Shown here: in pieces, positions 25,069 to 53,487 of the stretch | How positions within the stretch are numbered: position 1 is the stretch's first letter | How the letters are laid out: every line of letters starts with the position of its first letter | Origin: Candidatus Venteria ishoeyi | GTDB taxonomy: Bacteria; Pseudomonadota; Gammaproteobacteria; Beggiatoales; Beggiatoaceae | Direction: 5' to 3' | Length of the DNA stretch: 64,000 nucleotides | Assembly: GCF_030378065.1 (NCBI RefSeq) | Contig: NZ_JAUCGJ010000020.1 | Coordinates: 1 to 64,000, forward strand | Position numbers and translations under genes: made by a program | Notes under the pieces: model-generated | Database searches by the model: none | What the model saw: the letters and a program-made list of their open reading frames with translations, nothing else | Told to the model about the DNA's origin: nothing

Positions 25069-25080
25069 TATAAAGCATCC

Positions 25081-26247: not shown

Positions 26248-26330
26248 GCAGTTTCCTTCATTAGTTACTGATGTTACGTACCCCGATTGTTTATAGTTTA
26301 AACCTTATATTTTCTTGGGCAGCCTCCTGC

Positions 26331-29300: not shown

Positions 29301-30002
29301 CACCGCATAAGGTGTCATTTCATCGCGCCACAGAGGGTGTGCGTTCACGTTCAACCATAATAAATGCCCATCGGGTTTTTCCACCCCTAACACCGTGCCG
29401 GTAGAGGGCTGTCCAGTGCGCAGCGTACAAATGGCAGGATGGGTTTCACTGGGGAAAGGTTTACCATCCTCACGAATAATATTCCAGTCGGGATCCACCA
29501 GTGTCCAGCCGATCATCTGCTCAGAAGACAGGCCCAAAATACGTTCAGCGCTGGGATTACAGGCACCAATCGTACCGTTGGCATATTGCAGCACCACGCC
29601 CTCATCCAGTACATTAATCATTTCCTCAGCAATGCTGGGGCGCTCACGTCCACTGATATCCATTGCCACCACATAAAAAGCATCTTCCTGAGAGGCGGCG
29701 GAAGTAATCTCCCATAATAAATGGCGATACTCACCATTCTGGTGACGAAAGCGATTGGAAAAACTGGTGGAAACAGAACCTTCGCGCAACTGCTCCAGAT
29801 AGTATTGCGTTGATGGGCGATCATCGGGATGTACAAAATCAATCAGCGATTTTGCCAGCAACATGCCGGTAGATAAGCCTAGACTTTTTTCCCACGCTGA
29901 ATTAACTTCCTTAAAACGGATATGAAAATCCAGAATGGCAAACATGGCAGAGGTTCGCCAAAAAAAACGAGAATGATGCGGGGTATTGGACATAGAAACC
30001 AC
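26331..30002 (-). CDS. PAS-only protein, about ten tandem PAS domains
   Basis: The 1223 residues are built of roughly ten PAS/PAC units of about 120 residues. Each ends in a PAC-type signature such as VVAMDISGRERPS, GMHVDITSVQQ, VRETTERQQL, TLRDITERRAQ, VGIDITEREKN, MHDISERKKI or FAMDITDCAPH. There is no histidine kinase, GGDEF, EAL, HAMP or membrane segment. The chain ends inside the last PAS (LVTFSIPVE), so output must come from another protein or the gene has lost its effector domain. PAS domains bind heme, flavin or small ligands and mediate dimerisation. Function unknown. Confidence 0.88.
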   Translation of the reverse strand: MVSMSNTPHHSRFFWRTSAMFAILDFHIRFKEVNSAWEKSLGLSTGMLLAKSLIDFVHPDDRPSTQYYLEQLREGSVSTSFSNRFRHQNGEYRHLLWEITSAASQEDAFYVVAMDISGRERPSIAEEMINVLDEGVVLQYANGTIGACNPSAERILGLSSEQMIGWTLVDPDWNIIREDGKPFPSETHPAICTLRTGQPSTGTVLGVEKPDGHLLWLNVNAHPLWRDEMTPYAVVISFSDITTYKQTEMALRNDASSTNPQTVTEDLSQIEFWDWDLEANSLSLPPQWKRMLGYDEEALMNVIDTWYQRIHPVDYKRVVADIENHLEGMTDQFENTHRLQHKDGSYRWTRCRGRALRDTAGKPVHIIGMHVDITSVQQAEDQYQLSETRYQQLMETTVDAVFLADDETDKIIDANRAAMQMYGYNLQEFLHLHRHDLSAQVEKTTRKRPGRHTRRRHHKRQDETVFPVEVTTSPFVLQGKNMLLLVVRETTERQQLETSLWESQSKYRQLFEASSSATIVFDANTQQVFDVNNIAVTMYGYTKEEWLHLSTNDLSAEPSKSRTALYTGTRHQVISLRWHKKRDGTVFPVEISVGSSYLFQGRSLVCATLRDITERRAQEEALRSERDFVKTLVEGSPTFFLAIEPDGNIRMLNRALQKVLGYETDSLLGQNFLEALVPEDERQHMNLELDLLSTSMRPALVESQIYTKDNEIRLVEWHSRAVVKADGSLDYLFGVGIDITEREKNQADLTLFKSIIDASEESVAIARENGDLVYINPAYTELFGCTLEQPLQNEHCFPPESKEIINREIRPQLQQGQGWSGELNALDVHKKRFHIWQRTDAVRDKKGHILYQFSLMHDISERKKIWENMRAQWEEYQQILDTVPMMIWHRNPENHLLLANKPAVDVFGKEDDYKAFYSDNQGVLLSGESKYETLDLRVDAMGGKRRLQVGRIPYRNISGKITGLVVFAMDITDCAPHSFADSYHLANTPVRKLIEHLPLLLNAVNDKGQIIAWNAASEQISGYTAREILSNPAIIQRLYPEPAKFESLTSGSREHQWQAKLHCKDGTQRRIQWRNIGLHYPIPGWTHWQLGQVVETGDLSQNESMLHNEMQMTRDIFNVTRIAMSVTDDRGRFVQLNYAYADLYGYHVEDLVGKPFTMVLPETRHDEVIREYFSLLISSDQPRFITTDEQHRDGSTFHLASISHRVLMENSKRFLVTFSIPVE

Positions 30003-37827: not shown

Positions 37828-39234
37828 TTATTGATCAATAAGAAAGTGAATAACGGGCGTTCTTACCCATAATAAGAACATGCCGATCAATACAAATAAG
37901 CTACCGACAATGGCACCGAGCAGGGCAAATTTTTTCTTGGGCGCGCTGGGGCGATCCGGTAGATTAGGCGGGTCAAGGATTTGTATCAGGGGATAGCTGG
38001 CGTGGGTGTCGGATTTTCCGGCATCAATTCTCGCTAAAGCCGAGCTGAATGCGGCGCTGTCAATTTGGTGGGCGCGTTTGAGGCGCGTGAGTTCGGCGGT
38101 CTGCCTGGCGGTATCGCTGAGTTGCTGGCGGAAATCTTTAATTTGCTGAGTTAAATACTGATTTTGCGCTGCCAGGGCTTTGCTGTCAACATCGGTTTCT
38201 ATCATTTGTTGATAAAGCTGGGCGCGCACGCTGTTTTCCTGTAATGCCAGAGCAGTGAGTTGTTTTTTATTCACCTTGCCAATCAGTTGCCGTGCTTGTT
38301 GTAATAAACCCTGCCAACTTGCCTGGGCAACTTTTTGAGCACTTTTTAATTGCGGGTGCTGCGCCCCCCATTTTGCCTGTGCCTGACGGTATTCAACCTG
38401 AGCCTTGGCGTATTGCTGTTGGTAACGGGTATACAAGGGATCATTACGCAGTAATAAAGCATCGGCAACCTGGCTGGGGTTAAGATGCAGTTGTTTCATC
38501 AGGGTGTGTAGTCGCGCTTCTGCGGCAGCCTGACGAATTTGAATATCTGCTTGTTGTTTTTGCAGGTCGAGTAATGTACGCGCTAAGTCGCTACTTTGTT
38601 GTTCTGAAATCAGGTAATGACGGCTTTGGAAATCGGCTAAAGCCTGACGGCTGAGATTGAGGCGTTGATTAAATTGTGCCAACATTTGTTTTACAGCATG
38701 GTCGCGCAGGTGCAGTTCTTCCTTGCGCAGTTGTTCGAGTTGTTGTTGAAATGCGCTGTGAAAGGCTTGAGCTTTTTGTTGTGCAAATTCAGGTGTGGAC
38801 GCGCTGATCTTAAACAGCAGCAGGCTGGTTTGGGGAATGAGTTTGATTTTAGGCTTGCCTAATTCAGCCATTGTCAGTTTGAGTGATTCAGCAGTGCTTC
38901 CCAGGACACGGGGGCTGAGCGCGATATGCTGATAGTTCACCTTAGGGCTGAGATCATGACTGCCATAAGCTGAACTGCTGCTGCTGGCGATTTGCCCCAC
39001 GCCACTCAGGTTGACGTTGGCCCCCGCTCCCGTACCGGGCAGAATTAAAGTCCAGGCACTGGTGTAGCTGCGCGGGGTTAACAGGATATAACTCAGACTG
39101 GCAGCCCAAATCAGACCCAGGCAGAGTAATAACAGCAGGAGATAGCGCAGCCAGCGTTGTGGGCGGTTAACCCGCCATAATAATAAACGCTGCCATAAGG
39201 GACGATGCTGTCTGGCATATTCAAGGGTTTCCAT
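37828..39234 (-). CDS. Wzz/GumC-type polysaccharide co-polymerase
   Basis: The 468-residue protein has two membrane helices (about 29-51 and near 440-458) flanking a long periplasmic region that is largely coiled coil, with a PNLPDRPSAPKKK proline-rich segment before the second helix, all standard for Wzz/PCP proteins. They set polysaccharide chain length and link synthesis to the outer-membrane exporter. No tyrosine-kinase domain is fused. It is the last gene of the operon, 28 bases after the Wza-type gene. Confidence 0.87.
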   Translation of the reverse strand: METLEYARQHRPLWQRLLLWRVNRPQRWLRYLLLLLLCLGLIWAASLSYILLTPRSYTSAWTLILPGTGAGANVNLSGVGQIASSSSSAYGSHDLSPKVNYQHIALSPRVLGSTAESLKLTMAELGKPKIKLIPQTSLLLFKISASTPEFAQQKAQAFHSAFQQQLEQLRKEELHLRDHAVKQMLAQFNQRLNLSRQALADFQSRHYLISEQQSSDLARTLLDLQKQQADIQIRQAAAEARLHTLMKQLHLNPSQVADALLLRNDPLYTRYQQQYAKAQVEYRQAQAKWGAQHPQLKSAQKVAQASWQGLLQQARQLIGKVNKKQLTALALQENSVRAQLYQQMIETDVDSKALAAQNQYLTQQIKDFRQQLSDTARQTAELTRLKRAHQIDSAAFSSALARIDAGKSDTHASYPLIQILDPPNLPDRPSAPKKKFALLGAIVGSLFVLIGMFLLWVRTPVIHFLIDQ

Positions 39235-39262
39235 TGTACTTGAAGTTCAAAAGAGCTATGAA

Positions 39263-40435
39263 TCAGTTGCCAGAGCCGGTTTGCAACAGACGCAATAAGG
39301 TCAGCGGGGTGAGTATATCGCTGAAGCTGCGGGCAATATCACGAATATTTGTCACTCCAGAGTCATAACAGGCAATCCCGTCATTAGGCATTAAGTACGG
39401 ATTGTGTTGTAAGTTATCAGCTTGTTGCAATAATTGGCCCAAAGCGTATTCCTGCACCTGCGGCTGCCGGGTTTTTAAGTGATGGGTTAAATGCAGTATC
39501 TGGCGGCGGGCATTGGTACTTTGCGTGCCACCCACGCAGTTACCGGCTAATACCCCCTGTAATAAGCGGCTGCCATAGGGCAGGCTGCTGCTGTCGCTGC
39601 CTATCGCGGCTTTGGCATTGGCGTCAGCGGGTATACTGAGATTGGAAATAAATACCCGAAAGCCGGGCGGGGTGATTGCTGAAGTCTTTAATAACTCATT
39701 TTGCAGGCATTGCTGGCTGGGTACTTCCAAATGATCTCCAGCAATCAGCGGAATGTCAGTGCTGGTTTGATGGGTATATAAATATTGCAGATTAATGCAC
39801 CAGGATTGATTGCCACGGGTCAGGCGAATACGTTGTATATCCGCATCGGGACGTACACCACCGGCATTAGCCAGGGCCTGGGTTAGAAAACGCCCGGTGG
39901 CGTGTTGCCCCGTTTTTTGTAGTGGTCGCTGGGCTTGAAATTCCGGGTCTTTGGCATTAATGGTAACCGGCCCAGGATGAAACACCGCGCCACTGACCTG
40001 TACCTGCACCCCGGCCCAGTTTAATGGCGTGATGCTGATTTGAATCAAATCCGGGCGCAGTAGTTGCGCGTCAAGCAGGGCCTGGCTCAGCTTTTGTTGT
40101 AACTGGCTCAGCGTCAACCCCTGGGTAGCCAGGGGCTGAAGATGGGGAATATGTAATTGCCCATCCATATCAATTTCAAAAATACCACTGAAATCAGTGC
40201 CTTCATGCACATCTACCCGTATCCGGTCGCCGCTGGACAGGGTGAAACGGGGCAGTTGCTGCGGTGCAGGCGGTGCGGTCTGCGCCAGTGGCGGACAATA
40301 ATCCAGTGATTTTGTCTGGCTGTCGGTTGCTGGCAGAATAGTTGGGGAATGTGTGCAGCCTGTCAGACATAAAAGAAAAACCAGGACAGCTATCGGTTTT
40401 TTGCTTTTTTTCTGTTTATAACAGATGTTGTTCAT
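39263..40435 (-). CDS. Wza-type polysaccharide export lipoprotein
   Basis: The lipobox LCLTGC marks an outer-membrane lipoprotein. Residues 64-150 form a Poly_export domain (LSSGDRIRVDVHEGTDFSG) followed by SLBB-like segments (VQVSGAVFHPGPVTI). The C-terminal third is variable. Such proteins form the outer-membrane channel for capsule or exopolysaccharide. It begins five bases after the STAS gene, so export and regulator genes are translationally close. Confidence 0.87.
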   Translation of the reverse strand: MNNICYKQKKSKKPIAVLVFLLCLTGCTHSPTILPATDSQTKSLDYCPPLAQTAPPAPQQLPRFTLSSGDRIRVDVHEGTDFSGIFEIDMDGQLHIPHLQPLATQGLTLSQLQQKLSQALLDAQLLRPDLIQISITPLNWAGVQVQVSGAVFHPGPVTINAKDPEFQAQRPLQKTGQHATGRFLTQALANAGGVRPDADIQRIRLTRGNQSWCINLQYLYTHQTSTDIPLIAGDHLEVPSQQCLQNELLKTSAITPPGFRVFISNLSIPADANAKAAIGSDSSSLPYGSRLLQGVLAGNCVGGTQSTNARRQILHLTHHLKTRQPQVQEYALGQLLQQADNLQHNPYLMPNDGIACYDSGVTNIRDIARSFSDILTPLTLLRLLQTGSGN

Positions 40436-40440
40436 CCTGA

Positions 40441-40788
40441 TTAAGGTAGATTTTGAAAATAAGCAAGCGCCGCCGGATCATCAGCAAACAGCTTGAATAC
40501 CTGATGTAACTGAGTTAATTCAATTAAAGCCTGTACCGAGCCGGTAATTTGAGTTAAAACCACTTCACCTTGTTTTTCCCGTATCGCTTTGAGGGCGGAA
40601 ATCAATACCGATAAGCCACTGGAATCCATAAAATTAACGTCTGCCAGATTTAAGATTAATTTGCCTTGACCCGCTTCAATGATGGGTTTTAAGGCTTCGC
40701 GTATTTCGCTGGCATTCGCCATGACCAGTTGCCCTGATAAGGCGACCAGATCAATATTGCCATGTTGTTCATAGTGAAATTTCATCAT
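40441..40788 (-). CDS. STAS-domain anti-sigma-factor antagonist
   Basis: The 115-residue single STAS domain carries the phosphorylation motif MDSSGLSVLISAL, where Ser is the target of an RsbW-type kinase. In a partner switch the dephosphorylated form binds the kinase or a downstream target. ATGATG at the start overlaps the stop of the kinase gene. A role in controlling polysaccharide production is inferred from the operon. Confidence 0.92.
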   Translation of the reverse strand: MMKFHYEQHGNIDLVALSGQLVMANASEIREALKPIIEAGQGKLILNLADVNFMDSSGLSVLISALKAIREKQGEVVLTQITGSVQALIELTQLHQVFKLFADDPAALAYFQNLP

Positions 40789-41225
40789 TCAGTTCCTGTG
40801 TTGTCCTCTGGATAATATTTATAAAAACATAAATGGTTGTATTTTCCTTTCCGCTGATAAGCAATCTCATCAATACATTGTTGAATGATAGTGATACCCC
40901 GCCCGCCTTCATCTAAGTTTTCAAGCGTGATATTCATGGCTGGAGCTTGCCATATCTCATCAGCTACACAGCAGCCTTGATCATAAAAATGAATTTCAAG
41001 CCGATGTTGTTGTAACACAACCTGCACCTGGATTGTGTGCTCTGTTTGTTCATTATCCACATAAGCGTGGACAATAATATTATTGAGGCTTTCCACCGTG
41101 GCTAAATGTACTGCCTGTACAGCTTGCGGCGGTAATGGTGTTAGTGTCGCCAAGCCAGCGACACAAGTGGCCAGGGGAATAATATTTTCCGCTGTAGCAT
41201 GAATACTTAAATCAATTTTCTGCAT
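40785..41225 (-). CDS. RsbW-like serine kinase / anti-sigma factor
   Basis: The 146-residue protein is a stand-alone HATPase_c domain with the N box ESLNNIIVHAY and the later GGRGITIIQQCID block, typical of RsbW/SpoIIAB-like kinases. It should phosphorylate the STAS protein encoded next, with which it shares a four-base ATGA overlap. The ATG at 41225 is preferred to an upstream TTG. No sigma factor gene lies nearby, so the target of the switch may be an enzyme of the polysaccharide machinery. Confidence 0.9.
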   Translation of the reverse strand: MQKIDLSIHATAENIIPLATCVAGLATLTPLPPQAVQAVHLATVESLNNIIVHAYVDNEQTEHTIQVQVVLQQHRLEIHFYDQGCCVADEIWQAPAMNITLENLDEGGRGITIIQQCIDEIAYQRKGKYNHLCFYKYYPEDNTGTE

Positions 41226-41309
41226 AAGCTGAGCCAACCTGGTTGGGCTGTTGGGTAATAAAGATGGGTATACTGCGCCTTACTCTCATGATGGTTTACC
41301 AACAACTTC

Positions 41310-42509
41310 TTAGGTTTTAATTAAAGCGCTGTTTTCCAGCACTAATAAGGTTACATCATCATCAAAATTATTGCTGCCCCGCCAACTGCGTAACTGCGCT
41401 CCCAAACCATCTAATAAACGGGATAAATCCAGCTTACGGCTGCTTTTTAAGTAATCGCTTAAATGCAGCGTGCCAAATTCTTCCCCCGCCTCATTTAAGC
41501 ATTCCGTGACACCATCTGAATAAATAATCAGGCGCTCTCCGGGTAACAGGGATAAATGCTGTGTATTGTAATGAAATTCTGGCAGCATACCCACGGGAAA
41601 GCCGTGTTGACCGCAGCTTTGAACCTCGCCTTGTCTAGTCACATGCAGCGGCTTGGGATGACCCGCCTGGGTAAAGGCAATCGCATTTTGCTGGGTATCA
41701 ATCACCCCGTACAGCAGGGTAAAGTATAAATCTTCATTATTATCTTTGGATTGAAATAACTGATTTAAATCATCGACCACATCGGCAGGTGGACGCGGCT
41801 GCCATTGCTCTTCCCGATATTCCAGCAACAGCCCGGGGCTTTCCTGATGATTGATGATGCGATGATATAAGGCAAAAGACAATAAGGCAGAGCGCACGCC
41901 ATGACCGGAAACATCCAGTTGATAAAAAGCGATATGACGCGGCGTTAAGGAAAAAAAATTCAGCATATCCCCGGCGACAAATTCCGAGGGATAAAAACGC
42001 CAGTCAAATTGATAGTCTTGAATTTGCTTGGGGGCGGGTAATAATCTGCGCTGGGTTTGTGCGGCAGCTTTTAAGCTGCGATGAATCTGAGACTGGGCAT
42101 CAAGTAAATTTTGGTTACGCTCCGCCAGGCGGCGTTCTAAATCGATCACGCGTTGTCCCGCTTGCAAACGCACTCGCAATTCGTTTTTATCCACGGGTTT
42201 TAATAAAAAATCATCAGCACCGGCTTCCATGCCTTCAATTAATGCCGATTTTTGATCTTTCTGGGTTAAAACAACAATATAAATATAGTGGGGTGTATTT
42301 TCTGCCCGAATTTTTTTACATAGTGCCAAACCATCCATATTGGGCATCAGCCAATCGGTTAAGACTAATGCCAGGTCAGGGTGTTGTTGTAATAATTGCC
42401 ACGCCTGTAGCCCGTCACGGGCGCTGATAACCTCATAGCCATATTGTTTTAATAAGACTTTAAGAAATAAGCGAGTACTGTCCGAGTCTTCTGCTATTAA
42501 AATTTTCAT
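41310..42509 (-). CDS. Response regulator with PP2C (SpoIIE/RsbU-like) phosphatase
   Basis: An N-terminal receiver (ILIAEDSDSTR; phospho-acceptor Asp in LVLTDWLMPNMDG) is linked by a coiled coil to a PP2C-type phosphatase with YPSEFVAGDMLNFF, LDVSGHGVRSALLS and IIYSDGVTECLN. It should dephosphorylate the STAS antagonist when phosphorylated, closing a kinase-to-partner-switch chain. The ATG at 42509 overlaps the upstream stop as ATGA. The likely phosphate donor is the hybrid kinase of the same operon. Confidence 0.93.
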   Translation of the reverse strand: MKILIAEDSDSTRLFLKVLLKQYGYEVISARDGLQAWQLLQQHPDLALVLTDWLMPNMDGLALCKKIRAENTPHYIYIVVLTQKDQKSALIEGMEAGADDFLLKPVDKNELRVRLQAGQRVIDLERRLAERNQNLLDAQSQIHRSLKAAAQTQRRLLPAPKQIQDYQFDWRFYPSEFVAGDMLNFFSLTPRHIAFYQLDVSGHGVRSALLSFALYHRIINHQESPGLLLEYREEQWQPRPPADVVDDLNQLFQSKDNNEDLYFTLLYGVIDTQQNAIAFTQAGHPKPLHVTRQGEVQSCGQHGFPVGMLPEFHYNTQHLSLLPGERLIIYSDGVTECLNEAGEEFGTLHLSDYLKSSRKLDLSRLLDGLGAQLRSWRGSNNFDDDVTLLVLENSALIKT

Positions 42510-43933
42510 CGCCAACTGCTGCTATGGAATAAGCATTTGAATCCCTGCCATAAGTATGCCAAATCTTTGCGGGTACTGCGCCGTTTGGTATAAAATGCAT
42601 CACTTAATAATTTTTCTTCCCAGGGTGCATTTTGAGGTAAGTCCAGTTGGGTGGGGCCAAGCAATCCTACCGGCGCTTGATCGCGCACCTTTTCCCAGGC
42701 TTCGTTTTGTTGCCCGACTTGTTCCGGGCTTAGCGGCGATACTCCAACCAGGCGTAAATCACCGCGCACAACTGCCCATAATTTAGGCAAATGGCGCAAA
42801 ACCGGCGCATTCAGATTCCATTCCCAGGTTAAAAAGTGTTGGCGTTGTTGTATGCCCAACTCATTAACCGCCAGCCGATTACCCTGATAACAGCGTGGCT
42901 GGCGCGGGTCTTGTTTTAATGCAGCAAGCAGAGATGCTGCCAGCCATAAGGGCAATGACAAGACTAGTAATAATGCACCCAAAATACGATGCAGCCAATC
43001 TGCCAAACGGGTGTTAAGCACCGCATTATCCAGATCAGCCAGTAAAAAACTGTCCGTGATATGGGTGACAGTGCCGCTATCAACGCGAATTAATTGATTC
43101 CCCTGCACTATCGCCTGATTGACTTCAACCAGTTCGCCAATATAGGTATTGGGTAAAATCACGCTGTGGCGCAAAATTGCCTGACGCTCCACAATCACAT
43201 GATCACTCACCACCACATCTTCCAGCAGTTCTACGCTGGGGTGAAGCTTGCACTCTGCGCCAATAAATGCCTGACCTTGTTTCAGGCTTTTTACGGCAAG
43301 CTGAGTACGGCGGCCTGCCGTCAAACCCAGAGCCAGTTTCCGCCCTGCTAAATCAATCCCGATAAAACGCCCGCTGGCTGCATCAAGATTGGCTTGATGG
43401 TAGTGGCGAAAATTACTGATAGTATTGTAACTGGCATCATTAAGCGTATAACAGGCGGCATCATGTGGTGTAGTTTTACCCAAACAGGCCAGCGCATCTG
43501 CGCTGATGCTTTGTTGTGGACAAAAACAAAAAGCCACCTGCCCGTCAATACTGCCATATAAAAGCGTTTCTGAAACCTGCTGTAAAAATTGTTTTAATAC
43601 GGGGCTTTGCAAAACATCACCACGTAATACCACATAAGCTTCCGTATCCAGCAGAGCCAAACGCGGTATTAAAGTATCCAGCTTTTCTTCACCCTGGCTT
43701 AAGGCATAAGTCAGATTCAAGCCCCAGCGCTGACCATCACCCAACTGCTGTTTAAAGGCTTCCGGCTCGCTGCCGATAACCACCAGCACGTCTTTTAAGC
43801 CCGCTCTGGCTATCACTTCCAGCGCATGAATAATCAAAGGCTTAGACACAACGGGCAATAAGGCCAAAGGCTGCTGCTCAGTCAGTGGCTTTAAGCTTTC
43901 TCCCAAACCATCGGCAATCAGAATAGCTTGCAT
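42506..43933 (-). CDS. Nucleotidyltransferase / left-handed helix / degenerate sugar-transferase fusion
   Basis: Residues 1-230 resemble sugar-1-phosphate nucleotidyltransferases (MQAILIADGLGESLKPLTEQ; LPVVSKPLIIHALEVI), but the usual GGxGTR signature is changed to ADGLGES. Hexapeptide-like turns occupy 225-280, then a membrane helix (ILGALLLVLSLPLWLAASLL) and a sugar-transferase-like tail with RGDLRLVGVSPL. In that tail the catalytic Asp-Glu before LPxLW is Arg-His, so it should be inactive. The start abuts the previous stop. A scaffold or regulatory role is as likely as catalysis. Confidence 0.75.
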   Translation of the reverse strand: MQAILIADGLGESLKPLTEQQPLALLPVVSKPLIIHALEVIARAGLKDVLVVIGSEPEAFKQQLGDGQRWGLNLTYALSQGEEKLDTLIPRLALLDTEAYVVLRGDVLQSPVLKQFLQQVSETLLYGSIDGQVAFCFCPQQSISADALACLGKTTPHDAACYTLNDASYNTISNFRHYHQANLDAASGRFIGIDLAGRKLALGLTAGRRTQLAVKSLKQGQAFIGAECKLHPSVELLEDVVVSDHVIVERQAILRHSVILPNTYIGELVEVNQAIVQGNQLIRVDSGTVTHITDSFLLADLDNAVLNTRLADWLHRILGALLLVLSLPLWLAASLLAALKQDPRQPRCYQGNRLAVNELGIQQRQHFLTWEWNLNAPVLRHLPKLWAVVRGDLRLVGVSPLSPEQVGQQNEAWEKVRDQAPVGLLGPTQLDLPQNAPWEEKLLSDAFYTKRRSTRKDLAYLWQGFKCLFHSSSWR

Positions 43934-44670
43934 TAATACGCACCTCGCCCCAGTAATACCGCAGGAATGGTTTTTAACAGGATTTTAATGTCCTGAGTGA
44001 ATGATTGAGATTCAATATAAGCAACATCCAGCTCGACTTGTTGTTCAAACGGAATATCAGAACGTCCCGATACCTGCCAGATACAGGTAATACCGGGTAT
44101 CACCTCCAGACGGCGGCGATCTGCCAGGGAATATTGATCCACTTCGCCGGGTAATGGCGGTCGCGGCCCCACCAGTGACATATCACCGCACAAGACATTC
44201 CATAATTGGGGTAATTCATCAATGGAGGCTTTGCGGATAAAACGTCCCGTGCGGGTAATACGCGGATCGGATTTCATTTTAAATAAAACCCCGCCCTGCA
44301 TTTCATTATCTGCCATTAGTTTGGCTTTACGCGCTTCTGCGTCTATATACATGGAGCGAAATTTCCACATGGTGAATAATTTTCCCCAGCGCCCCACCCG
44401 GGTCTGGCGAAAAAATACCGGGCCGGGTGATTCCAGCCGAATCGCTGTCATGGTTGCCAATAACACAGGTGATAATAATAATAATGCGACTGCCGCCGCT
44501 GCTATATCGAATAAACGTTTAAAGACGAACAAGCCCTGCACCACGGCAAACCATAATAAACGCCGCAAATGAAAATGCAGGCGCTGACGTATGCCGAGTT
44601 GATAAACCTGGCTGTAACGCTGAATGAGTTGTTCTCGAATTTTATGACTGTGAGTCTGTTGGAGGCTCAT
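43933..44670 (-). CDS. Undecaprenyl-phosphate sugar phosphotransferase (monotopic PGT)
   Basis: A single membrane segment (residues about 42-70, FDIAAAAVALLLLSPVLL) precedes the PGT core with KFRSM, the catalytic Asp-Glu in SIDELPQLWNVL, and GDMSLVGPRPPLPGEV; GITCIWQVSGRSD follows. This enzyme transfers the first sugar phosphate to the lipid carrier. The ATG at 44670 lies inside the preceding gene (29-base overlap), and an upstream ATG at 44700 is possible. It is the only one of three neighbouring PGT-like domains with an intact active site. Confidence 0.92.
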   Translation of the reverse strand: MSLQQTHSHKIREQLIQRYSQVYQLGIRQRLHFHLRRLLWFAVVQGLFVFKRLFDIAAAAVALLLLSPVLLATMTAIRLESPGPVFFRQTRVGRWGKLFTMWKFRSMYIDAEARKAKLMADNEMQGGVLFKMKSDPRITRTGRFIRKASIDELPQLWNVLCGDMSLVGPRPPLPGEVDQYSLADRRRLEVIPGITCIWQVSGRSDIPFEQQVELDVAYIESQSFTQDIKILLKTIPAVLLGRGAY

Positions 44671-45985
44671 GTTGTTGTTCCCATTTTTGATGCCAGACAC
44701 GATATAAAAATAAGGGGTTACCGATTAAATAACGTCGCCACATGCGCCCCGGCTCCTGTAACAAGCGCCAACTCCATTCCATGCCAATTTCCCGCAGCCA
44801 TTGTGGTGCGCGAGGAATGCAACCGGCATAAAAATCAAATAGACCGCCAACCCCCATCAAGACTTTCGCTTGTAGTTGATGACGATGCTGGTGTAACCAT
44901 TTTTCCTGTTTGGGCACACCAAATGCCACTAATAAAATATCTGCGCCCGAATCATTAATCTGTTGAATAATTTGCCCGCTTGCTTCTGCCTTAAAATAAC
45001 CATCTTGATAACCGGCAATCCTTAAATCTGGCAATTGCTTTCGCATATTTTGCGCCACTTTTTCGGCAACGCCCGGTTTTCCACCCAATAAAAATAATGA
45101 CTGCTGACGTGGGATACTGGCCTGACATAAGCGCGGGAATAAATCCGTGCCATTGACATTAGCACGTAATGACACGCCCAGCATTCGGCAACCAATGTGA
45201 ATACCGATACCGTCAGGCAAAACCCGATCCGCCTGCTGTAAAATCTGGCGGTATGCTTCATCCTGGTGGCTGATATTCAGGCAATCAGGATTAACAAAAG
45301 CCAGTAAACGTTGCTGTTCGGGGTCTTTTCCAAACCAGGCAATGGCTTCTTCCATATCGGTATTGATTATATGGATACCAAAAAAGTTTAATATGGGCGG
45401 CATGGGCAATGGCGTGTGACTGCGCAGAAAAAAACTTAAACCATGACGCAGCATTAAACCCAGATTGCCTTGCAGGGTTTCGCTATAAATTTGTTCCTTA
45501 TCCAGGGTGGATTCCTGCTCATAAGCGATACCTGTTTTAGTGCGCAAGCCATATACTGAAAACAAGCCGGGGCGCACGCTGAAACGAAATTGTTCCTCAA
45601 AAGTTAAGCTGGCGGCTTCTTCAATGCTGAGTGGACGCGGCCCCACTAATGCCATATCACCCCGTAGAATATTAAATAAACGTGCCAGATTTTTGCCCGG
45701 TAAATGACCGGCAAAATATAAACGCTTAAAGGGGTGTTGAAAACGCCCCATGCAAAGCTGAAATTCAAATAGTTTGCCAGTGCGCCAATAAGCGCTGATA
45801 AACAGGAACAGCAATAAGGGTGACAGCACAATTAACAGCATAAGGCTAAGCAGTAAATCCAGCCAGCGGTTGCTGAATAAGGGACGCAAATAAAACCACA
45901 AGCGCCATAACGGCAAACGCAGGCGCTGCCGCCATGTTCTTGAAGTGCCCAAAGGGCCAGGTAATGGCTGCATAATATTTCTCAC
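44642..45985 (-). CDS. Pseudo-PGT domain fused to WecG/TagA glycosyltransferase
   Basis: The N-terminal 190 residues look like a sugar transferase (membrane helix [34 protein letters not shown]), but the catalytic Asp-Glu positions are Lys-Asn, so that half is probably inactive. Residues 205-435 form a WecG/TagA/CpsF glycosyltransferase ([43 protein letters not shown]), which adds the second sugar to the lipid-linked precursor. A GTG start overlaps the kinase stop as GTGA; an ATG at 45973 is the alternative. The fusion may tie the second step to the membrane site of the first. Confidence 0.88.
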
Positions 45986-48264
45986 AAATCATCCAGTATT
46001 TGACGCATGGCTTGAACAGTCGGTTCAATTTCAGCCAACACCAGGGATAAACAGGTTTCAACCTTTTCATCCTGTTGACAGGCATATTCCAGTGCTGCTG
46101 ATTTCTCATGCAAATAAAGCGCCCCAAATAATTTACTGCCACTTTTCATGGCATGGGCTTCGATTCTCATCGGCTCAAGTTCATTTTTCTGAAAAAATGC
46201 AGATAATGCCTGCGCATGATCTTCACATTCCTGGATAAAAACCATAACCATCTGGGCCACCATGTCCTTTCCTATATCATCCCCGATTTTTTCCAGGGCA
46301 TCCAAATCAATAGGGGCAAAAGGGGTAGACGTTGTTTTTTTATTGGTTTGAACGGGTGTTGGAGATGATTTTATTAACACCGGTTCCGCCTGCTGAGGCA
46401 GCCAGCGTTGTAACATCAGCAGTAAATCATTCCGGCTGACCGGTTTGCTTAAATAATCACTCATGCCCTTATCCAGACAAACTTGCCGTTCACTTTGCAG
46501 TGCATTGGCCGTGAGGGCAATAATTGGAATTGATGCCTTGTCAGCAGGCAAGGTTTTAATTTTTTGCGTGGCCTCAAAACCATCCATTTCCGGCATGGCA
46601 ACATCCATAATAATCAAATCATAAGCATTACTTTGAACTTTTTTAAACCCCTCCAGACCATTAATCGCTTCGTCCACCTGATAGCCATGTTTTCTTAAAA
46701 TAGCACCGATTACAGTACGGTTGGCGGTGCTGTCTTCGACTAATAATAATTGTGCATTACCTTGATGCAGATAGTGTGGCGTTGTTATACGGGTATTATT
46801 GACCTGGGGTTTTGGTTCCTCTAACGGTGCTGCTGGCTGGTAGGCTAAGGTAAAGGAAAAAGTACTGCCTTCTCCCGGTGTGCTTTGCAGCTTAATATCA
46901 CCGCCCATTTTTTTAACCAGGCTGCGCACAATTGCCAGACCCAGACCGGTACCACCATATTTACGGGTATTGGAAGGATCAGCCTGGGTAAATTTTTCAA
47001 AAATATGTACCTGTGCTTCAGGCTCTATACCAATGCCGGTATCTTGTACCTGGATACTTAATGCTGGTGTTTGTGGTGGCAGATGGCTGCTGCCGATATG
47101 TAATGTCACCGCGCCCTGATGGGTGAACTTTACCGCATTCCCCATCAGGTTTAACAGGATTTGCCGCAAGCGTTTAGGATCACTATTGATGCGTAGTGGC
47201 ACATCCGTATCAATAGAACCGATTAAATTAATTTTTTTGCTGCGGGCATCCGCTGTCAGGACATTTAATACGGCATTAATTAATACCGGTAAGTCGAAAT
47301 CAATCTGTTCTAGTACAAACTTGCTAGATTCCAGTTTGGAAAAATCAAGAATATCATTAAGTATACTTAATAAATTTCGGCTGGAATCCTCCGCAATCTG
47401 TAAAAAATGCTGTTGCTCATTATCCAAAGTTGTCTGTGTCAATAATTCCAGCGTACCCAGTAAAGCACTAATCGGCGTGCGGATTTCATGACTCATGGTT
47501 GCCAGAAAACGCGATTTGGCCCGATTTGCAGTTTCGGCCTGCTCCTTGGCGAGACGCAGTTCCTGTTGACGCTGCGCCTGTATACGTAAAACCTGGGCAA
47601 ATTGATTGACTGAATCTGCCAGAGCCACCAATTCAGTTGCACTGCGTTTGGGCAGATATAATGGATGGGTATAGTCATTATTGGCAATTTTTAAGACACG
47701 GCGATTGATTTTATTGATTGGACTCACCACCAGCCAGCGCATCAGCAAAATAATCATGGTACTTAATGCCACTGCCAACAGTACAGAAAACAACTGTACC
47801 CGTCCCACCATAAAACGTACTTTTTGTTCAATGGGACGCATATCCCAGGCCATGTATAAATAACCAAAATGTTCTTTTTCAACAATGATTGGGCGGGTAA
47901 ACTCCCGTTTGGAAATATCTTCGGCATCATGCGGGGGTTGCCATTGCGCGATAAGCAAGCCTTGCTGATTACGGTATTTAATGCGCAGAATAGCGGGGTC
48001 ACTTTGGCTGGATTGTTCCATGGCTGTTTCCAGCAGGGGGATATCCTGGGTAATGATGGCGTTTAATGACGCGGCAGTTAATAAGAAGGATATTTTTTCA
48101 GTTTGTTTTTCAATGTCTTCAATCAAATAATCAGTAACAAAATAACGTACCAGAAAACTGGCAATAAATATCACAATTAAGGTGACAACTACAAATAATA
48201 AACTCACCTGACGCCATAAGGGCCAGGATGAAAAAATCCGGGCTTTATTACTGAAAAAATTCAT
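45982..48264 (-). CDS. Hybrid sensor histidine kinase (HAMP-HisKA-HATPase-REC-Hpt)
   Basis: Two membrane helices (about 19-40 and 157-180) enclose a periplasmic sensor loop, followed by HAMP, HisKA (phospho-His in [15 protein letters not shown]), HATPase with [13 protein letters not shown], a receiver ([15 protein letters not shown]) and a C-terminal Hpt ([11 protein letters not shown]). The order is that of BarA/TorS-type tripartite kinases. It overlaps the PhnD-like gene by 17 bases, so the binding protein may present its ligand to this kinase. The phosphate probably goes to the REC-PP2C protein of the same operon. Confidence 0.94.
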
Positions 48265-49096
48265 GATTTTGCTCTATCGCCTGGCGAATAGGCGCATAAT
48301 CCGCATCACTGGCAACTAAAAAGCCATCTTTTTTTAAAGCTTTCAGCGCCTGCACATCCTTCATTTCCAACAATACTTCAGTAAGTGCCGCTACCATTGT
48401 CAGCGAAAGTTGTTTGCTTGCCAACCAGGGTTTGGTGACATTCTCAAACTCACCAATAATACGCAATGCCTTACCTTTTTTTAATAAGGTCTTATAAGTC
48501 CCCGCCTTTAACGCACCACCATCAAACTGCCCGGCGGCAACCGCTGCACCTACCTTGTCATGTCGCCCCAGATAAGCATAATCAGTGAAATCTGCTGCGT
48601 GAACACCAGCGGCAAGCAGGTGATTCTGCGCAAGATAACGGCCTATGGTTGAGTTTTTATTACCAAAAGCGAAACGCTTGCCTTTTAATTGCGCCAGTGT
48701 TTGAATATCGCTGTGTCTGGCAACGCAAATCACCCCCTTAAAAACCTTTTTCCCTTTTTTGCTTTCCATTGCCAGCAGCTTAATACCAGGTTCAAGCTGT
48801 TTGGCTTTAATATAGGAAGCGGGGCCAAAACGGGAAAAATCAACTTTACCGGAAACCAGGTCATTGATGCCGGTATCATAATCTTTGGCAACCACCATTT
48901 TGATTTTGACCATTTGGGAAAGTTTCTGACTTAAGCCGGTTTCCAGCGCACTTAATAAGGGGCGAAACTTTTTAACCATCGTCAGGGGTTGATCGGATGT
49001 ATATACGCCAAATTTGAGTTGAATATCTGCTTGCGCTGAAAATGTAGACAATAACAACAGCGGGCTGCAAAAAATAATGAGTTTTTTATAAAACAT
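48248..49096 (-). CDS. PhnD-like periplasmic binding protein
   Basis: A signal peptide ([11 protein letters not shown]) precedes a 260-residue binding fold of the phosphonate/phosphite type, with [32 protein letters not shown] and [20 protein letters not shown] as typical blocks. There is no ABC permease or ATPase in the locus. Its stop overlaps the start of the hybrid kinase, which points to a sensing rather than a transport role. Ligand unknown; phosphonate or phosphate is a guess from the family. Confidence 0.85.
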
Positions 49097-49165: not shown

Positions 49166-49194
49166 TTGACCGTATCGTTTCTGTTCATTAGATT
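49166..49194 (+). promoter_or_regulatory. Possible sigma-70 promoter for the flippase gene
   Basis: TTGACC and TAGATT are 17 bases apart, in the divergent gap between the PhnD-like and flippase genes. The predicted transcript start would leave a leader of only about ten bases, so this is tentative. Confidence 0.35.
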
Positions 49195-49210
49195 TTATAC
49201 TGAGGGCAGT

Positions 49211-50446
49211 ATGGCTATATTCCATCATTTTTTTGCCAATCGTTTTATTCGCAACAGCAGTTGGATCGGCGTGTCCGAATTAATGGCGCGTGTGTCACGA
49301 CTGCTGACCGCAATTATTCTGGCGCGTTTTCTGTCGCTGGAAGAATTCGGGATTGCAGCATTGGCTATCACGGTGAATGAACTGGTTAAGGTATTTAACC
49401 AAAATGGCATTGGGGCTAAAATCATCCAGGCTCCCGAAGCAGAACTGGAAGCGGTGTGTAATACGGCTTATCGTTTGAACTGGATGGTTTGCGGCAGTTT
49501 GTTTGTATTGCAATGCCTGCTGGCTTTTCCCCTGTCCTGGTTTTATCAGCAAGCTGATTTAATCCCCATGGTGATGTTGCTGGCAGTGGTTTATTTATTT
49601 ATGCCCTCGGCGCTGGTGCAGGCATTTTTAATCCAGCGTCAGAACCGTCTGAAAGTCACGGCTCTGGTTGCCGGGGTGCAGGTGACGGTGGATAATTTAT
49701 TAACCGCCTTACTGGCGGTGCTAGGCCTGGGAGCTTGGGCAGTGGTGCTGCCGAAACTGCTGGTTGCGCCGATCTGGGTTATCGGCACCCGCATGAATCA
49801 ATACTGGCGTTTTGATCCCCACAGCGGTTTTGCCCATTGGCGTGAGATTTTACATTTTGGTAAACATGTATTAGGCGTGGAACTGCTGAAAACCCTGCGC
49901 CTGAATCTGGATAATTTAATTATCGGGCGTTTTCTCGGCATTGAAGCGCTGGGTATTTATTCTTTTGCCCGTAATGCTGGTTTAGGTATCAGTTTATCTT
50001 TAAGCAGTGCGTTTAATACCGCGCTGTTTCCCCATTTGTGTGAAGGCGCTGAAGATCGTGGTTTATTACGGAAAAAATTTCTTCATGCCTTAAAAATAAT
50101 TGCCTGGGTGATGGTGCCTCTAATTCTGCTACAGAGCTTATTAGCGCCCTGGTATGTGCCAATTGTGTTTGGGGAAAAATGGCAGGTCGCCGTGCCGGTA
50201 TTATTATTGCTGTGTTTATCGGCAATTCCCAGACCCTTTGGTGAAGGTGCGGCAGAAGTCATGCGGGTGCTGAATAAACCGCATATTGATTTTTATTGGA
50301 GCAGCTTTTTTTCTTTGCTGTTTCTGGCAATTGTTTTTATCAGCCTGCCCTGGGGTATTAATGGCGTGGCACTGGGTATTTTATTAATTCACCTGATTGC
50401 ATTACCCGCTTATACAGTCTGGGTGGTGCGTCATTATTTGCATTAG
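49211..50446 (+). CDS. Wzx-type oligosaccharide flippase
   Basis: The 411-residue product has about 12 hydrophobic helices and the MOP/polysaccharide-transporter pattern near its start (LARFLSLEEFGIAALAITV) and middle (LDNLIIGRFLGIEALGIYSF). Flippases of this type move lipid-linked repeat units across the inner membrane. The ATG at 49211, after GAGGGC, is chosen over an upstream ATG. It diverges from the minus-strand polysaccharide operon and is followed by a variant large palindrome and two glycosyltransferase genes. Confidence 0.9.
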   Translation: MAIFHHFFANRFIRNSSWIGVSELMARVSRLLTAIILARFLSLEEFGIAALAITVNELVKVFNQNGIGAKIIQAPEAELEAVCNTAYRLNWMVCGSLFVLQCLLAFPLSWFYQQADLIPMVMLLAVVYLFMPSALVQAFLIQRQNRLKVTALVAGVQVTVDNLLTALLAVLGLGAWAVVLPKLLVAPIWVIGTRMNQYWRFDPHSGFAHWREILHFGKHVLGVELLKTLRLNLDNLIIGRFLGIEALGIYSFARNAGLGISLSLSSAFNTALFPHLCEGAEDRGLLRKKFLHALKIIAWVMVPLILLQSLLAPWYVPIVFGEKWQVAVPVLLLLCLSAIPRPFGEGAAEVMRVLNKPHIDFYWSSFFSLLFLAIVFISLPWGINGVALGILLIHLIALPAYTVWVVRHYLH

Positions 50447-50618: not shown

Positions 50619-52505
50619 ATGTTTTCTATTATCATGCCCTTATACAATAAAGCCGCCGAGGTTCGGGACAGCGTGTGCAGCGTGCTGGAACAAACAGAGC
50701 CTGATTTTGAATTACTGGTGATTGATGACGGCTCTACCGATAACAGCATTGAACAACTGGTGACGATTCAAGACCCGCGCCTGCGCCTGATTCAACAGCC
50801 AAACGCAGGTGTATCTGCTGCTAGAAATCGGGGTATTCAAGCTGCTGCTTATGCTTATGTCGCATTTATTGATGCTGATGATAGATGGGAAAAAGATTTT
50901 TTAGCGCGTATCAAAAACCTGATTCAAGCCTACCCGCAGGCAGGTGCCTGGGCAACGGCTTATGTTTTTCAACAGGGCGCGCAACTCACCCCGGCACGGA
51001 TTTATGGACTGGGTGATAAACCCACCCTTATTCATGATTATTTTGCTGTAGCCGGGCGTGGAGACTTACCCTTAATGGCCTCTGGCGTCTGTATTCCACG
51101 CCAGATATTAAAGCAATCTGGAGGCTTTCCGGAACAGCAGCAGCAAGGCGAGGATCAAGCCCTGTGGGCGTGGATAGGTCTGCGTTATCCCATTGCTATT
51201 GATCCCACGCCTTGCGTGCATTACCAATTAAGTGCCAGCAACCGCGTCAGCCTTAAGCAGATTCCGCAACAGGAACTGCCTTACAGCCGGGATTTACAAC
51301 AACAATTAAATGCCGGAGTGGTTCCCAGAGCACTTAGAAACTCGGTAGCGCGTTATATTGCAGGGCATCTGGTGCATTTGGCGCAATTAAATGTACGCGC
51401 CGGACGACCAGGGATTGCACGCTCTTTGCTGGCAGATCGCCGTACTCGCAAAACGCCGTTAAGACGCCTGAAGTGGTGGTTGCGTTCCTATCTACCCGTA
51501 TCCAGACCCGTCACCAAAGCCCGGGTGCTGCATTTACTGAATGACACTGATATGGGCGGGATTAAATCAGTGGTGGACAGTCTGGTGCAATCAAGCCTGG
51601 CTGAAGATTTTAAATTTGAATTTGTTTGTATCAATCCCCAATCCTGGTGGCGGCAGCATTATCAAGCCCAACTGATTATGCTGCACTATGCTTGCAACTG
51701 GCGTAATTTACCCGGCCTGGTGGTCTTACGCCTGCGCAACCCCCGCGCCAGGATTATTATCCAGGAACATCATTATACCCAGGCATTTGAACGCACTGTG
51801 CCTTGTGTATGGCGTTTTCGTACCATGTTACGTGCACATTATTATCTGGTACATCGGGTGATTGCAATTTCTCAGGGACAAGCCAGGTGGCTGATACAGC
51901 AAGTTTTATTTAGTCCTAATAAACTACATACCATTCCCCAATCCCGGCATTTGCATGAGTTTTTGCAAGTCCCGCTAAAAAACCCGCAAGAACCGTTGAT
52001 ATTGGCAGCTTATGGGCGTTTTCACTGGCAAAAAGGCTTTGATTTGCTGCTGGAAGTCATGCCCCGCCTGCCGCCCTCGCAATTTCATTTATTATTAGCC
52101 GGGGCAGGAGAACAGGAAACCCAGCTAAAAGCCAAAGCCGACAAGCTGGAACAGGTCACTTATTGCGGGATTATCAGCGATGTACCAAAATTCCTGGCAT
52201 GTTGTGACGTGGTGCTAATACCCTCCCGCTTTGAACCCTTCGGCCTGGTTTGCCTGGAAGCCAAAGCCGCCGCTAAACCGGTGCTGGTTAGTAATGTGGA
52301 TGGCCTGCCCGAACAGGCGCAGGGTTGCGGTCTGGTAGTAAATGCTGATGATGCGGAAGCACTTTACCAAGCCCTGCTCAAGCTGCCACAACAGCCTTTA
52401 AGCAGTTGGGGGAGCGAAGGCCGGATACAGGCACAAACGGCCTGGGATAATTATGTCAAACGTTGGCGACACTATCTGCAACAGGAGATCAATACTCATG
52501 CCTAA
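50619..52505 (+). CDS. Two-domain glycosyltransferase (GT2 + GT4)
   Basis: Residues 1-225 form a GT2 domain (FSIIMPLYNKAAEVRDSVCSV; DDGSTDNS; YVAFIDADDRWEKDF as the metal-binding Asp block). After a basic linker, residues 305-620 form a GT-B domain of the GT4 type (LHLLNDTDMGGIKSVVDSL; AYGRFHWQKGFDLLLEV; PSRFEPFGLVCLEAKAAAKP). One polypeptide could thus add two successive sugars. CAGGAA precedes the ATG. The stop overlaps the next glycosyltransferase by eight bases. Confidence 0.92.
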   Translation: MFSIIMPLYNKAAEVRDSVCSVLEQTEPDFELLVIDDGSTDNSIEQLVTIQDPRLRLIQQPNAGVSAARNRGIQAAAYAYVAFIDADDRWEKDFLARIKNLIQAYPQAGAWATAYVFQQGAQLTPARIYGLGDKPTLIHDYFAVAGRGDLPLMASGVCIPRQILKQSGGFPEQQQQGEDQALWAWIGLRYPIAIDPTPCVHYQLSASNRVSLKQIPQQELPYSRDLQQQLNAGVVPRALRNSVARYIAGHLVHLAQLNVRAGRPGIARSLLADRRTRKTPLRRLKWWLRSYLPVSRPVTKARVLHLLNDTDMGGIKSVVDSLVQSSLAEDFKFEFVCINPQSWWRQHYQAQLIMLHYACNWRNLPGLVVLRLRNPRARIIIQEHHYTQAFERTVPCVWRFRTMLRAHYYLVHRVIAISQGQARWLIQQVLFSPNKLHTIPQSRHLHEFLQVPLKNPQEPLILAAYGRFHWQKGFDLLLEVMPRLPPSQFHLLLAGAGEQETQLKAKADKLEQVTYCGIISDVPKFLACCDVVLIPSRFEPFGLVCLEAKAAAKPVLVSNVDGLPEQAQGCGLVVNADDAEALYQALLKLPQQPLSSWGSEGRIQAQTAWDNYVKRWRHYLQQEINTHA

Positions 52506-53487
52506 AGTTTCTGTGGTCATGCCCATTTATAATGTCGAATCCTATGTGGCCTCGGCGATTCAATCCGTGTTACAACAAACGTTCACTGATTTTGAATTAT
52601 TGTTGGTGATTGACGGCGCAACGGATAACAGTTTGGCGATTTGCAAACAGTTTGATGATCCGCGCATCCGTATTATAGAACAACAAAATCGGGGACTGGC
52701 GGGGGCGCGTAATACCGGAATTCGTCAGGCTCAAGGCGAATATATCGCCCTGCTGGATGCGGATGATCTCTGGCTGCCGGAAAAGCTGGCAAAGCAGGTG
52801 GCACATCTGGACAACAATCCCGAAGTCGGTATCAGTTATGCCATTTCAGCATTTATTGACGAACAGGATCGCAGTCTGGGGTTGTATATGTCTCCCAAAT
52901 TACAGGATATTACGCCGCAGGAAGTCTTTTGCCGTAACCCTGTCGGCAATGGTTCGGTGCCAATGATACGCCAAGCCGTATTTGCTGCTATTGCGTTTCA
53001 ATACCAGCCCGGTAATGATGAAATGGCTTATTTTGATGAAAGTTTTCGCCAATCGGAAGATATTGAATGCTGGATGCGCATGGCCTTATTAACAAAATGG
53101 CAATTTGCCGGTATTAATCAGGTTTTAATTCGTTATCGCGTGAATGCAGGCGGTCTGTCCGCCAACCTGGACAAACAATATCAGCAATGGCAGCGCATGG
53201 TAGATAAAATGCGTGATTACGCCCCAACATTTTTACAAGACTGGGAAGCCCCCGCACGCGCTTATCAATTGCGTTATCTGGCGCGGCGCGCAGTGCGGAT
53301 GCGCAATGCCAAAACCGCCACACGCCTAATGTCGCAGAGTCTGGCCTGTTACAAAGCATTGCTGTGGCAGGAACCGGGGCGCACCCTGAGCACACTGGCT
53401 GCCGCCTGGCTGCTGCGCCTGCTCCCCCTGAAGTTTTATCAAACACTGGAACAATGGGGGGTAAATTTGTCCAGGAAACTGAAATAA
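52498..53487 (+). CDS. GT2-family glycosyltransferase
   Basis: The 329-residue product starts MPKVSVVMPIYNVESYVASA and contains LLVIDGATDNS and YIALLDADDLW, the nucleotide-sugar and metal-binding blocks of GT2 enzymes. The ATG at 52498 follows AGGAGA and overlaps the preceding stop as ATGCCTAA. It resembles the N-terminal domain of its upstream neighbour, which suggests an old duplication. Sugar specificity unknown. Confidence 0.92.
   Translation: MPKVSVVMPIYNVESYVASAIQSVLQQTFTDFELLLVIDGATDNSLAICKQFDDPRIRIIEQQNRGLAGARNTGIRQAQGEYIALLDADDLWLPEKLAKQVAHLDNNPEVGISYAISAFIDEQDRSLGLYMSPKLQDITPQEVFCRNPVGNGSVPMIRQAVFAAIAFQYQPGNDEMAYFDESFRQSEDIECWMRMALLTKWQFAGINQVLIRYRVNAGGLSANLDKQYQQWQRMVDKMRDYAPTFLQDWEAPARAYQLRYLARRAVRMRNAKTATRLMSQSLACYKALLWQEPGRTLSTLAAAWLLRLLPLKFYQTLEQWGVNLSRKLK

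Follow-up and report, generated by a model that had tools for sequence, protein, structure and literature searches.

The DNA analyzed here, referred to as the window, is a stretch of 64,000 nucleotides from Candidatus Venteria ishoeyi (contig NZ_JAUCGJ010000020.1, positions 1 to 64,000), whose 4.4 Mb genome is that of a Beggiatoaceae-type gammaproteobacterium among the large sulfur bacteria. Ten minus-strand genes at 37828-49096 encode a periplasmic binding protein, a hybrid histidine kinase, lipid-linked sugar enzymes, a partner switch made up of a REC-PP2C phosphatase, an RsbW-type kinase and a STAS protein, and two export proteins. We consider it moderately likely that they form a post-translational control chain for one polysaccharide, in which the STAS protein binds the enzymes or the exporter instead of freeing a sigma factor. 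The identity of each gene was borne out by open reading frame calling and by Pfam and NCBIfam searches. From 49096 downward, the genes are:

48248-49096, minus strand: PhnD/PtxB-like periplasmic oxyanion-binding protein, 282 residues, the first gene (Pfam PF12974, Phosphonate-bd, 1.5e-51; nearest solved relatives PtxB, then ArrX and AioX)
45982-48264, minus strand: hybrid histidine kinase HAMP-HisKA-HATPase-REC-Hpt, 760 residues (Pfam; motif location)
44642-45985, minus strand: WecG/TagA (GT26) glycosyltransferase with an N-terminal segment that resembles a phosphoglycosyltransferase (PGT) and lacks the Asp-Glu dyad (Pfam PF03808, 1.2e-66; partial PF02397)
43933-44700, minus strand: initiating PGT, 255 residues, dyad D161-E162, for which an ATG start near 44670 is likelier (Pfam PF02397, 1.3e-68, full length)
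42506-43933, minus strand: nucleotidyltransferase, left-handed beta-helix and dyad-less PGT-like segment in one protein (NTP-PGT), 475 residues (Pfam NTP_transferase, hexapeptide and partial PGT; homolog alignment)
41310-42515, minus strand: response regulator REC-PP2C (SpoIIE-type) phosphatase, 401 residues, for which an ATG start at 42509 is likelier (Pfam REC 1.3e-26, SpoIIE 2.4e-39; family alignment; tree)
40785-41237, minus strand: RsbW/SpoIIAB-type serine kinase, 150 residues according to the open reading frame caller, TTG start (Pfam PF13581, HATPase_c_2, 4e-16; solved relatives SpoIIAB and RsbW)
40441-40788, minus strand: single-domain STAS protein, 115 residues, with Ser56 in DSSG (Pfam PF01740, 2.7e-23; nearest solved relative SpoIIAA)
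39263-40435, minus strand: Wza-type outer-membrane export lipoprotein, 390 residues (Pfam PF02563, Poly_export, 1.2e-10, and SLBB_2)
37828-39234, minus strand: Wzz-type chain-length co-polymerase, 468 residues, without a tyrosine-kinase domain (NCBIfam TIGR03007, 5.3e-20, below cut-off; no Pfam match)

These genes are one tight same-strand unit. The first-pass annotation had described a single overlapping unit joined by ATGA, GTGA and 17-29 base overlaps, and the gene set, the common strand and the tight packing all stand. From the sensor gene through REC-PP2C, the junctions overlap by 17, 4, 59, 1 and 10 bases with the starts of the open reading frame caller (with ATG starts for PGT and REC-PP2C, their overlaps become 29 and 4 bases), and RsbW and STAS overlap by 4 bases. 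The overlap does not extend to the REC-PP2C/RsbW junction, which is a 72-base gap; gaps of 5 and then 28 bases lead from STAS to Wza to the Wzz-like gene. No promoter- or terminator-like site was found in the 72-base gap, where a promoter scan rose barely above its shuffled control.

All catalytic and phospho-acceptor residues that were checked across the operon are present. The hybrid kinase has His259 in SHEIRTP (258-264), receiver Asp554 (motif 549-558) and Hpt His704 in AHAMKSGS; REC-PP2C has receiver Asp54 and the PP2C motifs DVSGHG, SDGVTE and DDD; E49 and N53 were located in the RsbW-type kinase; and Ser56 of the STAS protein is invariant across 9 aligned sequences. The G1 box of the RsbW-type kinase reads DQGCC and not DxGxG. 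We considered whether this might render the kinase inactive and drew no conclusion, since other polysaccharide-linked copies vary there too. REC-PP2C is the only stand-alone response regulator in the operon, and the locus has no DNA-binding regulator of its own. No ABC permease or ATPase gene was found by Pfam next to the PhnD-like gene, among the operon and neighboring proteins. The sensor pair is reused in this genome: at other places (L195, L196), PhnD-like proteins immediately precede sensor-type proteins.

A search for the switch set at other exopolysaccharide loci, as the first-pass annotation had proposed, found that REC-PP2C, RsbW and STAS do recur there, and one locus (L251) keeps the PhnD-like protein, the hybrid kinase, REC-PP2C and RsbW. 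Among 58 related genomes, the window's family yielded seven top RsbW relatives, of which six adjoin polysaccharide genes; the seventh (G016) runs to a contig end. A Halobeggiatoa locus (L022) reads WecG - PGT - NTP-PGT - REC-PP2C - RsbW, two Marithrix loci read RsbW - STAS - PGT - NTP-PGT, and in G010 and G029 REC-PP2C - STAS - RsbW is followed by a cellulose-synthase-like GT2 protein. The order in G032 is REC-PP2C - RsbW - STAS - STAS - Wza - Wzz, and its sister G016 reaches the contig end after the STAS genes; the tandem STAS pair after RsbW, at L026 10232-10920 (G032) and L024 13147-13864 (G016), was seen in the two genomes of this one genus. Two further genomes of the family have STAS - Wza - Wzc-like, with RsbW not detected. 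When the RsbW protein alone was used as query it retrieved no relative from the genome contigs; an NTP-PGT alignment query did retrieve relatives.

The same association extends well beyond the family. A Competibacteraceae locus (L038) holds REC-PP2C, RsbW, STAS, WecG, PGT and NTP-PGT within 11 kb; a first impression that RsbW and STAS were missing there was rejected when a full scan found both, hidden by overlapping reading frames. G109 has REC-PP2C - RsbW - STAS - Wza - Wzc, and G177 has WecG, NTP-PGT, REC-PP2C and RsbW. The f194 genomes carry REC-PP2C - RsbW with STAS - Wza - Wzz and Wzx nearby and a divergent LuxO/SypG-like regulator. Vibrio sp. THAF190c and the genomes sharing its locus have REC-PP2C - STAS - NTP - RsbW - GT2, and cellulose-synthase-like or GT2 genes adjoin REC-PP2C and RsbW on Pantoea stewartii pDSJ10 and REC-PP2C - STAS - RsbW on a Salmonella plasmid. 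Wza comes immediately after STAS in L149, L274 and L275, and in L026, L239 and L240 no other switch gene lies closer upstream of Wza than STAS does. The switch set with polysaccharide genes thus spans Beggiatoaceae, Competibacteraceae, Vibrionaceae, Pantoea/Salmonella plasmids and further families, and because the combination recurs in unrelated genomes, it is not due to chance.

In 40 loci of the class chosen by RsbW alone, polysaccharide markers were present at 3/3 loci with a close REC-PP2C gene versus 0/37 others (Fisher p 1e-4), the markers being profiles built for this analysis that could miss a distant glycan gene. These loci are the best matches to a profile built mainly from polysaccharide-linked RsbW, a choice that does not by itself force an association with the REC-PP2C type. 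The clade of the window protein in the REC-PP2C tree (9 rows, 86/95) contains only polysaccharide-linked loci and the contig-end case. Matches to REC-PP2C at E<=1e-60 occur in 28 of 398 genomes of the phylum, mostly of one family, apparently Rhodobacteraceae, and named Rhodobacteraceae plasmids match the window protein at 34-36% identity.

Fusions in relatives offer a clue to what the STAS protein acts on. In genus g122, which belongs to a different gammaproteobacterial family, five genomes encode WecG-STAS-STAS proteins immediately upstream of REC-PP2C, and RsbW follows wherever the contig is long enough; the phosphorylatable serine is invariant in the second STAS domain, and the first one is degenerate. 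In L249 and L251 the fusion gene is preceded by a PhnD-like gene and a hybrid kinase (HAMP-PAS-HisKA-HATPase-REC-Hpt) and followed by REC-PP2C; RsbW comes next in L251, and the L249 contig ends inside REC-PP2C. STAS-PGT fusions were found in two genomes, L252 and G258. L252 also has a WecG-STAS protein near a PhnD-like protein 54% identical to that of the window; within the window's own family, the top-scoring match to the window PhnD-like protein outside this locus has 33% identity.

The STAS-PGT architecture is shared by Synechocystis XssP, named from its place in the xss cluster, with 50% identity over STAS and PGT. Deletion of xssP abolished bloom formation and suppressed exopolysaccharide (PMC8205485); the word STAS was not found in the text of that paper. 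All4160 of Anabaena is an earlier-noted STAS-glycosyltransferase (PMC8256260). The synechan regulator XssQ was considered as a STAS protein and rejected. In the stretch read around xssP the annotation lists no REC-PP2C or RsbW gene, and no PLSDB plasmid has a full-length WecG-STAS protein at the threshold used.

The physical fusion of a switch output to an enzyme is a classic sign of direct interaction. In the g122 proteins, XssP and All4160, STAS is a domain of enzyme classes that are also found at the window locus, where STAS is a separate protein. Fusions to WecG and PGT in homologous loci favor direct action of STAS on the synthesis machinery and are the chief new evidence for this suggestion of the first-pass annotation.

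The chain we propose draws on domain content, gene order, conserved residues, recurrence and the fusions in relatives; the phosphotransfer steps, the sign, the ligand and the STAS target are our reading of these. An oxyanion-like ligand would be bound by the periplasmic PhnD-like protein, which would be presented to the hybrid kinase; from its nearest solved relatives PtxB, ArrX and AioX, we infer that this input resembles AioX/ArrX-type sensing. The kinase would relay phosphate via its own REC and Hpt domains, and Hpt most likely feeds REC-PP2C because this is the only stand-alone response regulator of the operon. Phosphate on REC-PP2C would then set the balance of PP2C phosphatase versus RsbW kinase at Ser56 of the STAS protein. 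If the precedent of SypE/SypA (PMC10120452, PMC4517449) holds here, STAS would be off when phosphorylated and on when dephosphorylated; most likely in the latter form, as for SypA, it would bind PGT and WecG, which make the lipid-linked sugar, and/or the Wza-Wzz exporter.

Several observations weigh against this proposal. Around broader REC-PP2C relatives (L243, L244, L246, L247, L248), which are probably Rhodobacteraceae RbaY-like proteins, the profiles used detected no polysaccharide gene; since most broader relatives are without a detected glycan link, the switch is not bound to glycans, and the association of REC-PP2C with polysaccharide genes is strong in the window's clade and not universal. 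The Halobeggiatoa locus has the switch kinase and phosphatase with no STAS gene detected nearby, and L022 5019-7643 holds short repeats instead. Another row (L182, G194) runs PhnD - hybrid kinase - NtrC-type regulator - RsbW - nucleotidyltransferase - STAS; this locus was rejected as a full match for the REC-PP2C type, its regulator being an NtrC-type sigma-54 activator. The sensor is modular, as PhnD-like proteins precede kinases elsewhere in the genome. The fusions belong to a different genus, and the resemblance of their STAS domains to the window STAS is remote (about 25-50 bits versus the STAS profile). Finally, transcriptional control through RpoS or another factor encoded elsewhere is possible, even though the locus has no DNA-binding regulator.

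This last route would be a canonical switch in which RsbW sequesters RpoS or the ECF sigma factor until dephosphorylated STAS frees it, with the polysaccharide genes in the regulon. A whole-genome search for Pfam region 2 returned five sigma-70 proteins, named by NCBIfam as RpoD, RpoS, two RpoH and one ECF factor, so that candidate partners exist; the RsbW-type kinase matches the SpoIIAB and RsbW structures, and a sigma-S partner switch has been reported in Shewanella oneidensis (Bouillet et al. 2016, as described in PMC8256260). The same region-2 search, which did not cover RpoN, found no SigB/SigF/FliA-type sigma, and the dedicated factor whose discovery would have overturned the first-pass annotation did not emerge. 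As that annotation had stated, there is no sigma-factor gene in the operon or among the neighboring window proteins scanned, and none was noticed beside the polysaccharide-linked switch copies of relatives. In Rhodobacter capsulatus, the homologous RbaW did not bind any of the sigma factors tested, and the output is RbaV (PMC3999984). A STAS domain fused to a glycosyltransferase also fits poorly with a freely diffusing anti-sigma antagonist. We therefore regard sigma-factor release as unlikely, though a Shewanella-type RpoS route keeps some weight against the suggestion that STAS acts directly on synthesis or export, which the fusions and the lack of a dedicated sigma factor favor.

We find it improbable that STAS instead acts on another regulator elsewhere, a diguanylate cyclase or a DNA-binding protein in the manner of SiaC/SiaD or HsbA, that in turn controls the polysaccharide made here. 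Such outputs have precedents in Pseudomonas aeruginosa SiaC, which is reported to activate the cyclase SiaD (PMC8457831), and in the STAS protein PA3347, which binds FlgM (PMC8256260), but the fusion partners of STAS are GT26 and PGT enzymes and not cyclases, and scanning the operon and neighboring proteins revealed no GGDEF protein. It is very unlikely that the switch genes only share a transcript with the polysaccharide genes and serve some unrelated process: broader REC-PP2C relatives do occur away from detected glycan genes, and similar triads lie beside apparent Mla-type ABC transporters, but the switch is found again and again with different glycan machines across several families, and this, together with the fusions, speaks against mere convenience.

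The switch has its closest parallel in Vibrio fischeri, where SypA acts downstream of SypE and STAS is the output inside the syp polysaccharide locus (PMC10120452, PMC4517449). The SypE/SypA switch with SypF/RscS shares with the window a hybrid kinase input, an RsbW-type kinase, REC, PP2C and placement in a polysaccharide locus, here of the Wza/Wzz type, as well as a single-domain STAS protein with Ser56. The two differ in that kinase, REC and PP2C form one SypE polypeptide in syp, whereas the window has separate genes for REC-PP2C (41310-42515) and the kinase (40785-41237). In addition, syp has a SypG-type sigma-54 activator, a domain absent from the proteins scanned between 33 and 63 kb of the window, where a PhnD-like protein precedes the kinase. 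L239 and L240 look intermediate, with a LuxO/SypG-like regulator present and kinase and phosphatase separate.

The RbaY/RbaV/RbaW proteins of R. capsulatus are likewise of the REC-PP2C, STAS and RsbW kinds; no cognate sigma was found for them, the STAS protein is the determinant of the output, and mutants change colony morphology (PMC3999984). In contrast to the window, the rbaY gene is separate from rbaVW, what has been reported as output is the production of gene transfer agents, and no sensor or polysaccharide operon is described. RsbU/RsbV/RsbW-SigB and SpoIIE/SpoIIAA/SpoIIAB-SigF have the same three activities and phospho-serine site, but these systems have a cognate sigma, whereas this locus has no linked sigma and the genome no SigB/SigF. 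As in AioX-AioS, ArrX-ArrS and TorT-TorS, the binding protein is encoded with the sensor kinase, and AioX and ArrX share the PhnD/PtxB fold (PMC5908839), again beside a kinase and without an adjoining ABC permease or ATPase gene; the output of these sensors is a DNA-binding response regulator, and here it is a partner switch.

Given the direct SypE/SypA precedent and the known AioX/AioS and ArrX/ArrS sensor pairs, the locus is less singular than the "strongest candidate system" announced by the first-pass annotation, and syp had already provided both the components and the concept of a partner switch in a polysaccharide locus. As far as the literature searched shows, what is new is that the switch occurs as split genes with a binding-protein sensor of its own, that this version recurs with different glycan machines, and that WecG-STAS and STAS-PGT fusions occur within this regulatory chain.

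The sugar enzymes themselves also yielded a side result. At 42506-45985, one intact PGT is flanked by two dyad-less PGT-like segments, on WecG and on the nucleotidyltransferase. The Asp-Glu dyad is present in 6/6 stand-alone PGTs and missing from 5/5 WecG-fused (one of these rows begins at a contig end) and 7/7 NTP-fused segments, and the dyad-less segments are kept in Beggiatoaceae and Competibacteraceae (L022, L027, L028, L034, L037, L039). The segments may hold substrate supply, initiation and second-sugar transfer together in a single membrane complex, which could plausibly serve the STAS protein as a platform. The PGT-like parts are modeled too poorly by AlphaFold to be judged (mean pLDDT 45 for NTP-PGT and 59 for WecG).

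A flippase gene and two glycosyltransferase genes, probably of the same pathway, diverge from the operon out of one shared short intergenic region:

49166-50446, plus strand: Wzx-type flippase (Pfam PF13440, 1.5e-55)
50619-52505, plus strand: GT2-GT4 double glycosyltransferase (Pfam)
52453-53487, plus strand: GT2 glycosyltransferase (Pfam)

PGT, Wzx, Wza and Wzz of a Wzx/Wzy-dependent pathway are thus all found at the locus; no Wzy polymerase was recognized in the window, and the relative L239 has a Wzy_C-type protein. The window further contains a 2024-residue open frame at 621-6695 with strong AT skew over part of it, a 1512-residue protein with an nSTAND1 NTPase and a WD40 propeller (17576-22114), and a row comprising a phospholipase A1, a leucine-rich-repeat protein and a 1223-residue protein with repeated PAS domains (23998-30002). 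Other STAS proteins of the genome include one in a chemotaxis operon. In other genomes, RsbW/STAS/SpoIIE-type genes lie beside apparent Mla-type ABC transporter genes (L277, L278, L280, L281, L282; judged by position and sequence starts), perhaps another STAS switch acting on a membrane machine.

For SypA, RbaV and HmpV, the mode of action without a known sigma factor is an open question (PMC10120452, PMC8256260). The WecG and PGT fusions name concrete candidate targets for STAS, so that the target of SypA becomes testable, and XssP provides a genetically tractable case in which an exopolysaccharide has already been shown to depend on the fused enzyme. The present analysis suggests that partner switches control polysaccharide enzymes directly, and not gene activity only. 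More tentatively, SypA, the window STAS and XssP might share a general mode of glycan gating, in which a free or fused STAS domain attaches to the PGT that initiates synthesis or to the glycosyltransferase that follows, and the enzyme is toggled according to a periplasmic ligand as an RsbW kinase phosphorylates the STAS serine and a REC-PP2C phosphatase dephosphorylates it. If true, a serine-phosphorylation switch, which here comes with a co-polymerase without tyrosine kinase, would be a further means of exopolysaccharide control besides transcription, cyclic di-GMP and Wzc tyrosine phosphorylation.

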